DNA from: Aestuariivirga litoralis
Lineage (GTDB): Bacteria; Pseudomonadota; Alphaproteobacteria; Rhizobiales; Aestuariivirgaceae
DNA: 64,000 nt
Reading direction: 5' to 3'
Assembly (NCBI RefSeq): GCF_015714715.1
Contig: NZ_WAHS01000001.1
Location: 434,001-498,000 of the forward strand
The position numbers and the translations under genes are program-made. The notes below the pieces were generated by a model. That model ran no database searches. It had not been told where the DNA came from and worked only from the letters and a program-made list of their open reading frames with translations. Positions 6,321-48,071 of this stretch are shown piece by piece. How positions within the stretch are numbered: the first letter of the stretch is position 1; each line of letters begins with the position of its first letter.

Positions 6321-6335
6321 GAACAAACCAAGAAC
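6321..6335 (+). promoter_or_regulatory. LexA (SOS) box upstream of DUF5131-tcmP
   Basis: GAAC-AAACCAA-GAAC, an exact match to the alphaproteobacterial LexA site GAAC-N7-GAAC. It ends 18 bp before the DUF5131 start codon. It resembles the recA box of this same window, including the ATA that follows the second GAAC. An AGGA Shine-Dalgarno lies between the box and the ATG. The match is seen directly; LexA binding is inferred. Confidence 0.75.
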
Positions 6336-6353
6336 ATATGCTAGGATACAGTC

Positions 6354-7112
6354 ATGGCCCAGAACACCGAAATTGAATGGACCGACGCCACTTGGAACCC
6401 AGTTACCGGCTGCACCAAGATTGGACCGGGCTGTGACAATTGCTATGCGGCGCGTTTTGCGGAGCGCTGGAGAGGCATTGAGAACCATCCCTATGAGCAG
6501 GGTTTTGATCTGCGCCTTTGGCCCGAAAGATTGAAACAGCCGGCTCTTTGGAAAAAGCCACGCATGATCTTTGTGAATTCCATGAGCGATCTTTTTCATA
6601 AGGACATTGATCGCGCGTACATTGATCAGGTTTTCGAAACGATGGAAAACGCCAACTGGCATGTATTCCAAGTTCTCACCAAGCGAAGCTCTTTGATGAG
6701 GAACTATGTCAAGAAACGCTATGACGGTGGCAAGGTACCATCACACATCTGGTTGGGTGTTTCAGTGGAAGATGCGGCTCACAAAAGTCGTGTCGAACAT
6801 TTGCGCCAAATAAATTCTGAAGCGCGGTTCATTTCATTTGAGCCGCTGCTGGGTGCTATCGGCGAACTTGACTTGACTGGGATTGCCTGGGCAATCGTCG
6901 GCGGAGAAAGTGGGCCGAGAGCCCGATCGATGAAGCCTGAATGGGCAACCGAGCTTAAAGACGCGTGCAAAAAATTTGGCGTTGCTTTTTTCTTCAAGCA
7001 ATGGGGCGGCGCGCGACCCAAATCTGGCGGGCGGCTGCTTGAAGGTAAGGAATGGAACGGGTTTCCATGGACGATTGTGCCTGCTCCAATTATGGCGAAG
7101 CTGCGAACCTAG
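6354..7112 (+). CDS. Phage Gp37/Gp68 family protein (DUF5131), three-Cys protein
   Basis: 252 residues. The N-terminus holds the family hallmark: EWTDATWNPVTGC followed by Cys20-x6-Cys27-x2-Cys30 and YAARFAERW. Later conserved stretches are FVNSMSDLFH (about residue 75), VFQVLTKRS, IWLGVSVED, FISFEPLLG and VGGESGPRAR, and the C-terminus has FFFKQWGGARPK. The cysteine cluster suggests an Fe-S or metal site and the barrel-like strand pattern is reminiscent of radical SAM-type enzymes, but no activity is established to my knowledge. It forms a two-gene unit with tcmP 9 bp downstream, is preceded by a LexA-type box and is A+T-richer than its neighbours, suggesting horizontal acquisition. Confidence 0.88.
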   Translation: MAQNTEIEWTDATWNPVTGCTKIGPGCDNCYAARFAERWRGIENHPYEQGFDLRLWPERLKQPALWKKPRMIFVNSMSDLFHKDIDRAYIDQVFETMENANWHVFQVLTKRSSLMRNYVKKRYDGGKVPSHIWLGVSVEDAAHKSRVEHLRQINSEARFISFEPLLGAIGELDLTGIAWAIVGGESGPRARSMKPEWATELKDACKKFGVAFFFKQWGGARPKSGGRLLEGKEWNGFPWTIVPAPIMAKLRT

Positions 7113-7121
7113 GAGTTCTCA

Positions 7122-8267
7122 ATGGATTTGGACATTGGCCTATATGAGGAGCGTGAACAGTCCTATATCAAGCATAGGTTTTTGACCAAATATTTGGAAA
7201 GCGCTGCGTTTAAGACACTGCAAGGTCATTCGCCCGTTTTTAATTTTGTTGATGCGTTTGCTGGGCCGTGGAAAATTTCTGATGAAGCAAAATATTCTGA
7301 CGCTTCGTTTGACCAGGCGATTAACACCTTAGAAGCAGTTCGCGTGAAATTGCTGGAGATGGGCAAATCGAACATAAAAATCCGTTTTTTCTTTTGTGAA
7401 AAGCGGTCCAATCGCTTTCAAAAATTGAAGGAGTACGCAGAACAAAAGAAGAGCTTCGATATCAACTTATTTCAGGGGGCCTTCGAGGATAATCTCGACG
7501 CGATTTCGGCGGCCATTCCACAGGGCGGATTTACTTTTACATTCATCGATCCAACCGGATGGAAAATTCAGAATGCGAGAATTTTCGATTTTCTTAGGAA
7601 GCGCAAGGGAGAATTTCTTCTGAATTTCATGGCCGATCATATCAATCGCCATGCTGAGTATTCAAAAGTCGTCGAATCTTTTGGGCAATTTTTGGCCGAT
7701 CCCAATTGGGCCGATGAGTTTGCGAAAACTTCATCCGACTTGTCTAACGACGAACGAGTTCTACTATTGCTTAAGCGCAAAATGCTTGAAGCTGGGGTCG
7801 CGCGCTTTTTGCCAGTCTTTCCGATAATGGTTCCGCGAAAAGAGCGGGTCAAAATGAGGTTGATTTTGGGAACTCAAAGCGCCCATGGCCTCGAACTTTT
7901 CAGGGACATCCAATATAAAATTGAACGGGAAGAAATGGAAGTGCGCAGCGGACTTCGCACACCAGATGACGGTCAAACGTCTCTTTTCTCAGACGATTTT
8001 CTCGCGAAGATTAAGCAAGACGATGAAGGTGTCGGGAGTAAAAAATACAAACTAGAAGCCACGGCAATTGTGATGGAAGAGCTGGCAACTTTTGGTTCAG
8101 TAGTCTTTAAAGATATTGAATTGAAGCTTATGGATGCTGTTCCCATTAGATCTACGCAGATCAAAGAATTGATGAATGACCTTCGAGGCGCCGGTAAAAT
8201 TGCTTATCATTTGCCGCCGAGGATGCGCAAAGCACAGCCAGACACGATCATAAAGAAGGGTACATAG
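7122..8267 (+). CDS. tcmP: Three-Cys-motif partner protein TcmP
   Basis: 381 residues. It matches the TcmP pattern of a protein encoded beside the DUF5131/three-Cys protein: an N-terminal KHRFLTKYLE segment, VDAFAGPW at 43-50, FFFCEKR at 89-95 and FTFIDPTGW at about 139-147. These three stretches look like motif I, the acidic loop and the DPP(Y/W)-like motif IV of a Rossmann-fold S-adenosylmethionine methyltransferase; that reading is inference. The C-terminal ~110 residues are rich in charged residues and resemble a helical or winged-helix segment. The start follows AGGAG with 9 bp between the genes. Codon use is A+T-rich like its partner. Function is unknown; nucleic-acid modification or repair fits the SOS context. 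Confidence 0.85.
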   Translation: MDLDIGLYEEREQSYIKHRFLTKYLESAAFKTLQGHSPVFNFVDAFAGPWKISDEAKYSDASFDQAINTLEAVRVKLLEMGKSNIKIRFFFCEKRSNRFQKLKEYAEQKKSFDINLFQGAFEDNLDAISAAIPQGGFTFTFIDPTGWKIQNARIFDFLRKRKGEFLLNFMADHINRHAEYSKVVESFGQFLADPNWADEFAKTSSDLSNDERVLLLLKRKMLEAGVARFLPVFPIMVPRKERVKMRLILGTQSAHGLELFRDIQYKIEREEMEVRSGLRTPDDGQTSLFSDDFLAKIKQDDEGVGSKKYKLEATAIVMEELATFGSVVFKDIELKLMDAVPIRSTQIKELMNDLRGAGKIAYHLPPRMRKAQPDTIIKKGT

Positions 8268-8270
8268 AAA

Positions 8271-8292
8271 ATATTCCTTGACAAAGGAATAT
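8271..8292 (+). promoter_or_regulatory. Perfect palindrome overlapping a TTGACA element
   Basis: ATATTCCTT-GACA-AAGGAATAT is a perfect 9-bp inverted repeat around a 4-base centre, starting 3 bp after the tcmP stop codon. The centre forms a consensus -35 hexamer TTGACA at 8278-8283. A -10 is not obvious (TACTGC at 17 bp; TATGTA at 13 bp). The arrangement is what one expects of an operator over a promoter for a repressor-controlled gene; with no T-tract after it, it is a poor intrinsic terminator. Confidence 0.5.
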
Positions 8293-8710
8293 AAGTTATG
8301 TACTGCTCCGCCCGTCTTTTTCAAAGGAGGGGACGATGCTGATCACAGAGTTCCAACATTGTGAAGAAGAGTGCAGCGCCTGCAGGGTGAAGCCTAACTC
8401 ACTTCATGCCTCCGGGAGCTCCGGTTCTGGACCTTGGGCACTAAGACCCAAGCGCCTTCAATGGCTGACCAATATCAGCCCCGGATTTAAAATCGCTGCG
8501 TTTTGCCTTCGGGCTTCAGGCCTCTCGGCCATCTACAACTCCACACTCAGCATATGCGGGCTTGAAGCCAGGAGCGGGCATTCCCCTCCATTTTCCTTCG
8601 GCGGCGCCATGAGGTGACGCGGCCGGCACCCACCCTTCATCCCTTGCGCAGTGGCGCGAATGTCAGGGCAGGTGTCAGCTTAATTCAAACAGATTTGAAC
8701 TCAGGCAGGA
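8293..8710. other. Gene-poor accessory stretch with one doubtful short reading frame
   Basis: About 420 bp between tcmP and the small secreted-protein gene. A strong Shine-Dalgarno (AAAGGAGG, 5 bases before ATG 8336) opens a 93-codon frame to 8617, beginning MLITEFQHCEEECSACR. The remainder is Ser/Gly/Pro-rich without recognisable domain or convincing coding signature, so I do not call it a gene. It could be a leader peptide or a remnant. A small inverted repeat TTCAAA-CAGA-TTTGAA lies at 8684-8699, just beyond the 3' end of the gene on the opposite strand. Confidence 0.4.
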
Positions 8711-48056: not shown

Positions 48057-48071
48057 GAACTAAACTAGAAC
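48057..48071 (+). promoter_or_regulatory. LexA (SOS) box of recA
   Basis: GAAC-TAAACTA-GAAC, an exact GAAC-N7-GAAC alphaproteobacterial LexA site, 84 bp ahead of recA. It lies between a -35-like TTGACT (48048-48053) and a -10-like ATACAA (48072-48077, 18 bp spacing), where bound LexA would block RNA polymerase. Confidence 0.85.

Follow-up and report, generated by a model that had tools for sequence, protein, structure and literature searches.

The published LexA motif of Caulobacter is GTTC-N7-GTTC (PMC12700426). Among the genes predicted to belong to the SOS (DNA-damage) response of alpha- and betaproteobacteria is splB (PMC3323433), and enzymes resembling its product, spore photoproduct lyase (SplB), were found together with other SOS components (PMC3765255). 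Here, we analysed a 64,000-nucleotide stretch of the Aestuariivirga litoralis genome (contig NZ_WAHS01000001.1, positions 434,001 to 498,000; 'the window' hereafter), in which a LexA-type box stands before two adjacent genes. One encodes a protein of the DUF5131 (phage Gp37/Gp68) family, the other, tcmP, a three-Cys-motif partner. With the PDC-M30/M41 candidates of the PADLOC collection the pair shares adjacent A and B components; PDC systems are putative, were proposed by guilt-by-embedding and are not experimentally validated (PMC10855318), and the portions of the PDC literature consulted describe no SOS link.

The literature searched contained no function for DUF5131 or TcmP and no paper joining DUF5131 and LexA, the older alphaproteobacterial regulon lists (Erill 2004; Caulobacter 2008) lying outside that search. 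The main text of the S. venezuelae regulon paper names one LexA-regulated 'Radical SAM protein', vnz_31145, and none of Gp37, three-Cys, TcmP or DUF5131 (PMC9380542); the main text of a Dinoroseobacter paper mentions neither Gp37 nor three-Cys (PMC6473078). What the locus has in common with the alphaproteobacterial LexA regulon is the sequence of the box, its spacing, its place before the first gene and its likeness to the boxes of recA and lexA. It differs in that the target is an accessory, mobile pair, not found in the passages of the regulon papers that were consulted.

Results

The box (GAACAAACCAAGAAC, 6321-6335, forward strand) was located by motif search and has the form GAAC-N7-GAAC, that is, GTTC-N7-GTTC on the opposite strand. 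In agreement with the preliminary description of this locus, it lies 18 bp 5' of the ATG of the DUF5131 gene (6354-7112, forward strand, 252 amino acids), and tcmP (7122-8267, forward strand, 381 amino acids) follows after a gap of 9 bp. Both family assignments are certain: the DUF5131 protein matched PF07505 (3.7e-95, 318.5 bits, gathering cut-off 28.9) and TcmP matched TIGR04474 (102.6 bits, NCBIfam cut-off 53), while the match of the DUF5131 protein to TIGR04471 (8.1e-25) stayed below the cut-off. The likeness to the box before recA that had been pointed out also held, since the latter (GAACTAAACTAGAAC, 48057-48071, forward strand, motif search) is again GAAC-N7-GAAC and ATA directly follows both boxes.

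We then analysed homologous pairs for exact boxes on either strand within 150 bp 5' of an anchor placed at whichever gene comes first. DUF5131 loci were drawn from the class (54 of 385 genomes matched, with 59 matches, of which 9 were left out and one of these, the second DUF5131 copy of the A. litoralis genome, was looked at separately) and from the order of A. litoralis (47 of 397 genomes matched at E <= 1e-60; 17 of the 47 matches left out). Of 580 relatives in named public genomes, the best 80 were added (grouped by record title into 25 alphaproteobacterial, 5 ambiguous and 50 others, one of the last with incomplete upstream sequence). TcmP loci came from its own phylum (24 over the cut-off in 398 genomes) and from the phylum to which an Opitutaceae genome belongs (25 over the cut-off in 337 genomes). 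We infer that the order is Hyphomicrobiales and the class Alphaproteobacteria, as two loci of the order, L278 and L276, encode DUF5131 proteins that, where compared, do not differ from those of Rhabdaerophilum (L109) and Methylobacterium (L121), both Hyphomicrobiales. DUF5131 proteins scoring above 400 bits against a profile of the one in the window were termed window-type. Excluded were 36 loci with an absent or low-scoring DUF5131 or an incomplete upstream region (L088, one of these, does have a box, at a distance of 143 bp upstream). A further 17 loci, including nine from alphaproteobacteria, were removed as duplicates. L056, whose exact box lies 128 bp 5' of the start, just outside the 150-bp span, was scored as a miss.

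Exact boxes preceded 27 of the 46 window-type DUF5131-TcmP pairs of alphaproteobacteria (in 25 cases no more than 100 nt from the anchor, in two at 135) and 3 of the 11 pairs of that order whose DUF5131 scored lower. Where the order is reversed to TcmP-DUF5131, 8 of 16 alphaproteobacterial pairs had the box, now 5' of tcmP. None was found at the 69 loci outside the alphaproteobacteria (49 named, 6 others of the own phylum and 14 Verrucomicrobiota), and loci of ambiguous class had it in two of five cases. Elsewhere in the alphaproteobacterial loci, the background was about 0.005 boxes per span searched (0-0.009). The gene-order switch is the strongest point: the box stays at the front of the operon, whichever gene leads. 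The preliminary description had asked for the box to recur in related genomes and it does, which supports the proposed LexA control at the level of sequence.

Redundancy among these loci was considered by clustering. At 80% protein identity, a box occurred in at least one member of 22 of 36 DUF5131-TcmP clusters and 6 of 14 TcmP-DUF5131 clusters; at 70% identity, the figures were 3 of 6 and 4 of 9, and with so few clusters, deep independent lineages are modest in number. Among 28 representatives (consensus GTTCTTGTTTTGTTC), the 3' half of the spacer, whose columns are outside the search pattern, was conserved with 1.43, 1.11 and 1.70 bits. The nearest flanks reached 0.83 and 0.90 bits, one more column 0.46 and the other flanking columns at most 0.30, so conservation is limited to the box, its spacer and its nearest flanks.

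Within the genome (3.33 Mb in four contigs), the single LexA match has a box of the same type (GAACTTAACCGGAAC) 43 bp before the lexA ATG. Exact boxes with a similar AT-rich spacer were detected 5' of recA, ssb, ruvA, a comM-like gene and, on contig 3, a dinB-type polymerase gene, and another exact box lies directly 5' of a canonical radical-SAM gene (S-adenosylmethionine, SAM; Radical_SAM according to Pfam), which we read as splB. Using a spacer-aware matrix built from six SOS boxes of this genome, with the DUF5131 box left out, the latter ranked 12th of 68 sites, just above the box of lexA itself. Sites of recA, lexA, ssb, ruvA, the comM-like gene, the dinB-type polymerase and the splB-like gene were among the 13 best-ranked, 6 of which had been used to build the matrix. 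This rank, together with the conservation in relatives, takes the box beyond chance. Motif counts alone were rejected as evidence: the window holds two GAAC-N7-GAAC matches (1.45 expected), 43 of 100 shuffles reach at least two, and the reversed pattern is commoner genome-wide (112 versus 68 matches). The motif by itself therefore proves nothing.

In structure-based comparison, the predicted fold of the DUF5131 protein was nearest to spore photoproduct lyase, which accounted for the top six chains, followed by viperin-like, SuiB and RlmN structures; the model thus shows the barrel of radical-SAM enzymes. Three cysteines, C20, C27 and C30 (codons within 6411-6443, forward strand), form a CX6CX2C motif that is invariant in 79 DUF5131 sequences and are likely the [4Fe-4S] ligands. 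SplB, although nearest in fold, shares 10-12% identity with the DUF5131 protein, which has an invariant C205 and a different partner, and a profile of the 79 sequences had no match at E <= 1 among PDB sequences, so that the likeness is at fold level only.

For TcmP, no Pfam match over the cut-off was obtained. Its predicted fold is that of class I methyltransferases, in line with the methyltransferase-like partner that had been proposed; RlmJ ranked first, tied in Z (14.1) with a plant N-methyltransferase. D44 in VDxFAGP (codon 7251-7253, forward strand; invariant in 76 sequences) likely belongs to the SAM-binding motif I. N6-adenine methyltransferases carry a DPPY motif, and its position is occupied in TcmP by D143 in DPxG (codon 7548-7550, forward strand; invariant in 76 sequences); the DPPY-type catalytic motif expected of RlmJ is absent. 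Besides this DPxG, TcmP differs from RlmJ, the 23S rRNA A2030 N6-methyltransferase, in its low identity (10-11%) and its length (381 versus 271-280 residues).

Relatives of the DUF5131 protein were found in 404 plasmid and 161 phage records. The plasmid pairs are annotated in both orders and convergently; 51 of the phage records stand under Mycobacterium and 49 under Gordonia names, and three of the 40 phage records listed are annotated as RNA methyltransferase. Neighbours at such loci include two Abi-type genes near a Leisingera plasmid pair, a type ISP restriction gene near a Leptospira plasmid pair, and integrase and helix-turn-helix (HTH) genes near the relative of a Gordonia phage; close to other pairs lie a type IIG enzyme, AbiEi and AbiLi. 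For S. meliloti, a published list gives a TcmP gene, SMa2243, together with the defence gene hna, SMa2245, two locus tags away (PMC12445080). The pair of the window matched the PADLOC PDC-M30/M41 candidates, both in the B models (2.1e-100 and 2.4e-101) and, weakly, in the A models (1.6e-11 and 6.6e-5), PADLOC's own thresholds not being applied. PADLOC families (E <= 1e-10) numbered 68 among 102 pair neighbours versus 27 among 109 control open reading frames (ORFs) of the own genome. We claim no enrichment from this, as the counts are of families rather than genes and the controls were picked at GAAC-N7-GAAC sites.

Other lineages appear to be wired differently. On a plasmid of Comamonas sp. 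C11 (L317, 1866-4257), genes for an S24 peptidase, DUF5131 and TcmP stand in a row, the first two overlapping, and the peptidase is possibly a self-contained damage-sensing repressor of the pair. In the tubercle bacillus complex, a TcmP domain is described for BCG_2748c, and BCG_2749c is recX (PMC7387457). The gene after recX, Rv2735c, shares a transcript with recA-recX (PMC3062782); we infer that Rv2735c is TcmP. Rv2734, Rv2735c, recX and recA form one cluster among the genes changed by mitomycin C, upon which 128 genes rose, the sole decreases being those of rrs and two non-coding RNAs (PMC5057432). Rv2734, considered here as a candidate DUF5131 gene, is termed a conserved hypothetical protein (PMC5393005).

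In an Opitutaceae genome (L180/L305), TGTTCAAGTGAACA lies 10 bp 5' of a DUF5131-TcmP pair; the genome also has a second lexA-like gene, preceded by a similar site, TGTTC-N4-GAACA. This motif is the published verrucomicrobial LexA motif. This link was not used, since the site occurred in none of four relatives (at least 67% identity) and, among the scanned loci, only in L223 of the same genome. A scan for clade-specific boxes covered beta- and gammaproteobacterial, streptomycete and leptospiral plasmids and the Gordonia phage, and found none of CTGT-N8-ACAG, GAAC-N4-GTTC and TTTG-N5-CAAA within 1 kb 5' of the starts tested (named plasmid pairs and the phage); a GAAC-N7-GAAC was found inside the Methylobacter DUF5131 gene. 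In two Latescibacterota genomes (L133, L137; L187, L192), lexA and DUF5131 are each preceded by an ACTnATGTKCAGT-like word, seen by eye.

Further observations concern the A. litoralis genome itself. Three more boxes were noted: GAACAAAACAAGAAC 14 bp 5' of a 469-amino-acid HD-domain gene (PF01966, HD_assoc_2; L020, C1:805413), a candidate for a further SOS-controlled accessory gene; GAACATAATAAGAAC 113 bp 5' of an N6/N4 DNA methylase gene (L019, C1:673282); and GAACAAAGCAAGAAC 24 bp 5' of a 222-amino-acid ORF with no Pfam match (L026, C1:1018173). An inverted repeat at the tcmP stop codon (8260-8303; two 20-nt arms, 80% complementary, 4 nt between) is a possible terminator. Just 3' of tcmP, a repeat (8330-8600) has 10 matches in the genome including itself (74-100% identity), one beside the SOS-boxed methylase gene (C1:673513) and another about 0.7 kb past the HD-domain gene with its SOS box (C1:807506). 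The repeat is a possible marker of sites at which accessory genes insert. The second, more distant DUF5131 copy of the genome (L041, C2:33371-34225) has no box in the 300 bp 5' of it and no recognised TcmP.

Discussion

The recurrence of the box in relatives argues for LexA control, which is very probable for such pairs in alphaproteobacteria and, by the same comparison, highly likely for the copy in the window. The two marks on which we placed the latter in a LexA regulon, a GTTC-N7-GTTC box at 6321-6335 and the same box type before lexA of the same genome, were both found. We consider it likely that DUF5131 and tcmP form an accessory, LexA-repressed operon whose products act together on nucleic acid, in repair or defence. 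LexA bound at 6321-6335 would block transcription of DUF5131-tcmP; upon DNA damage, RecA-stimulated cleavage of LexA would release the operon, so that the pair is probably switched on by damage. Predicted folds and invariant residues suggest the enzymatic roles. Using SAM and an iron-sulphur cluster held by C20, C27 and C30, the DUF5131 protein would act on a base by radical chemistry, in the manner of spore photoproduct lyase, and TcmP would bind SAM and methylate or recognise the target of DUF5131. On the strength of the models, we lean towards both proteins acting on nucleic acid by such radical-SAM and methyltransferase chemistry. Most likely they either repair or edit damaged DNA or defend the cell against DNA that invades it, and the evidence favours neither over the other; the link to repair or defence made in the preliminary description finds support in the predicted fold and the PADLOC matches.

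A broader proposal, which we put forward tentatively, is that of a new two-enzyme repair or immunity system, consisting of an atypical CX6CX2C radical-SAM protein with the fold of spore photoproduct lyase and a partner of methyltransferase fold. SOS control of this system would have arisen by at least three routes: by LexA boxes in either gene order in alphaproteobacteria, by the placement of tcmP in the recA-recX operon in the tubercle bacillus complex, and possibly by an S24 repressor in the operon of a betaproteobacterial plasmid.

Among more specific explanations, an SOS-inducible anti-phage pair is possible, though we hold it with reserve. DNA damage or phage replication would relieve LexA repression, and the enzymes would modify or disable the invading nucleic acid; regulation would be as in our preferred reading, with selection for defence instead of repair. 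The PDC-M30/M41 match, itself a guilt-by-embedding candidate, speaks for it, and among 100 P. aeruginosa strains 32 were predicted to carry PDC-M30, of which 68.8% were resistant (PMC10855318). So do the Abi-type, type ISP, type IIG, AbiEi, AbiLi, integrase/HTH and hna neighbours, and the sporadic, plasmid-borne distribution. However, no protection test was found in the literature searched, the apparent place of the TcmP gene in the recA operon of the tubercle bacillus complex is a repair setting, and the nearest fold of DUF5131 is that of a DNA-repair enzyme.

A further alternative is a dedicated lesion-reversal or DNA-editing enzyme: DUF5131 would be, in function, a divergent relative of spore photoproduct lyase, with TcmP as a partner that binds DNA or methylates. 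We regard this as rather unlikely. The nearest fold favours it, but likeness of fold alone shows no reaction, and the canonical CX3CX2C motif is absent from DUF5131, with CX6CX2C in its place in the 79 sequences; both points weigh against SplB-like chemistry also in our preferred reading, the accessory LexA-repressed operon.

It is improbable that the box of the window arose by chance or is a relic, with the pair SOS-controlled in relatives and not here. In favour of this, GAAC-N7-GAAC has 68 matches in the genome, fewer than its reversal, the other window-type pair of the genus lacks the box, and the box of the window reads GAAC on the coding strand while most relatives read GTTC-N7-GTTC. Further observations tell against LexA control in our preferred reading. 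No exact box was found before 19 of the 46 window-type pairs, among them the other window-type pair of the genus (L287), nor before a second pair of the genus from another subfamily (L290), the TcmP start of which is poorly placed. Six named Rhodobacteraceae/Rhodobacterales loci (L105, L106, L110, L111 and L112, all five among the 19, and L115, a truncated Rhodobacteraceae locus below the window-type threshold) had no exact box and, in one case, a site with one mismatch. Leisingera and Acetobacter plasmid copies (81-82% identical) show, by eye, a half-decayed site with two mismatches, and no site was seen in the Sulfitobacter copy. Alphaproteobacterial DUF5131 genes without a same-strand TcmP, convergent pairs included, had a box in 2 of 22 cases; in ten distinct convergent pairs it stood before tcmP once (L063), before DUF5131 once (L299) and in eight not at all. 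Allowing one mismatch raised the window-type count to 36 of 46 but also matched 8 of the 69 loci outside the alphaproteobacteria, and we therefore relied on exact boxes only. Finally, 3 of 13 genomes of the genus, including that of A. litoralis, have a DUF5131 match (E <= 1e-60) and ten have none; carriage this sporadic means that DUF5131 is no core repair gene. The pair is accessory, and its regulation has been gained and lost. Against a chance or relic match in the window stand the spacer-aware rank of 12 among 68, a place and spacing that match the box-bearing relatives, and an orientation that is the same site on the opposite strand.

That another regulator, for instance a plasmid- or phage-type repressor, acts on GTTC-N7-GTTC is very unlikely, for although the S24-type peptidase gene overlapping the start of the Comamonas plasmid pair shows that other wiring exists, the same type of site precedes lexA and recA of this genome and is the published LexA motif of Caulobacter (PMC12700426).

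DUF5131 is spread across many phyla, plasmids and phages, and SOS control of an accessory operon would suggest a class of substrate for DUF5131 and TcmP. A role in immunity would make the pair a defence module whose timing is set by the DNA-damage response; a role in repair would add a further radical-SAM repair enzyme beside SplB.
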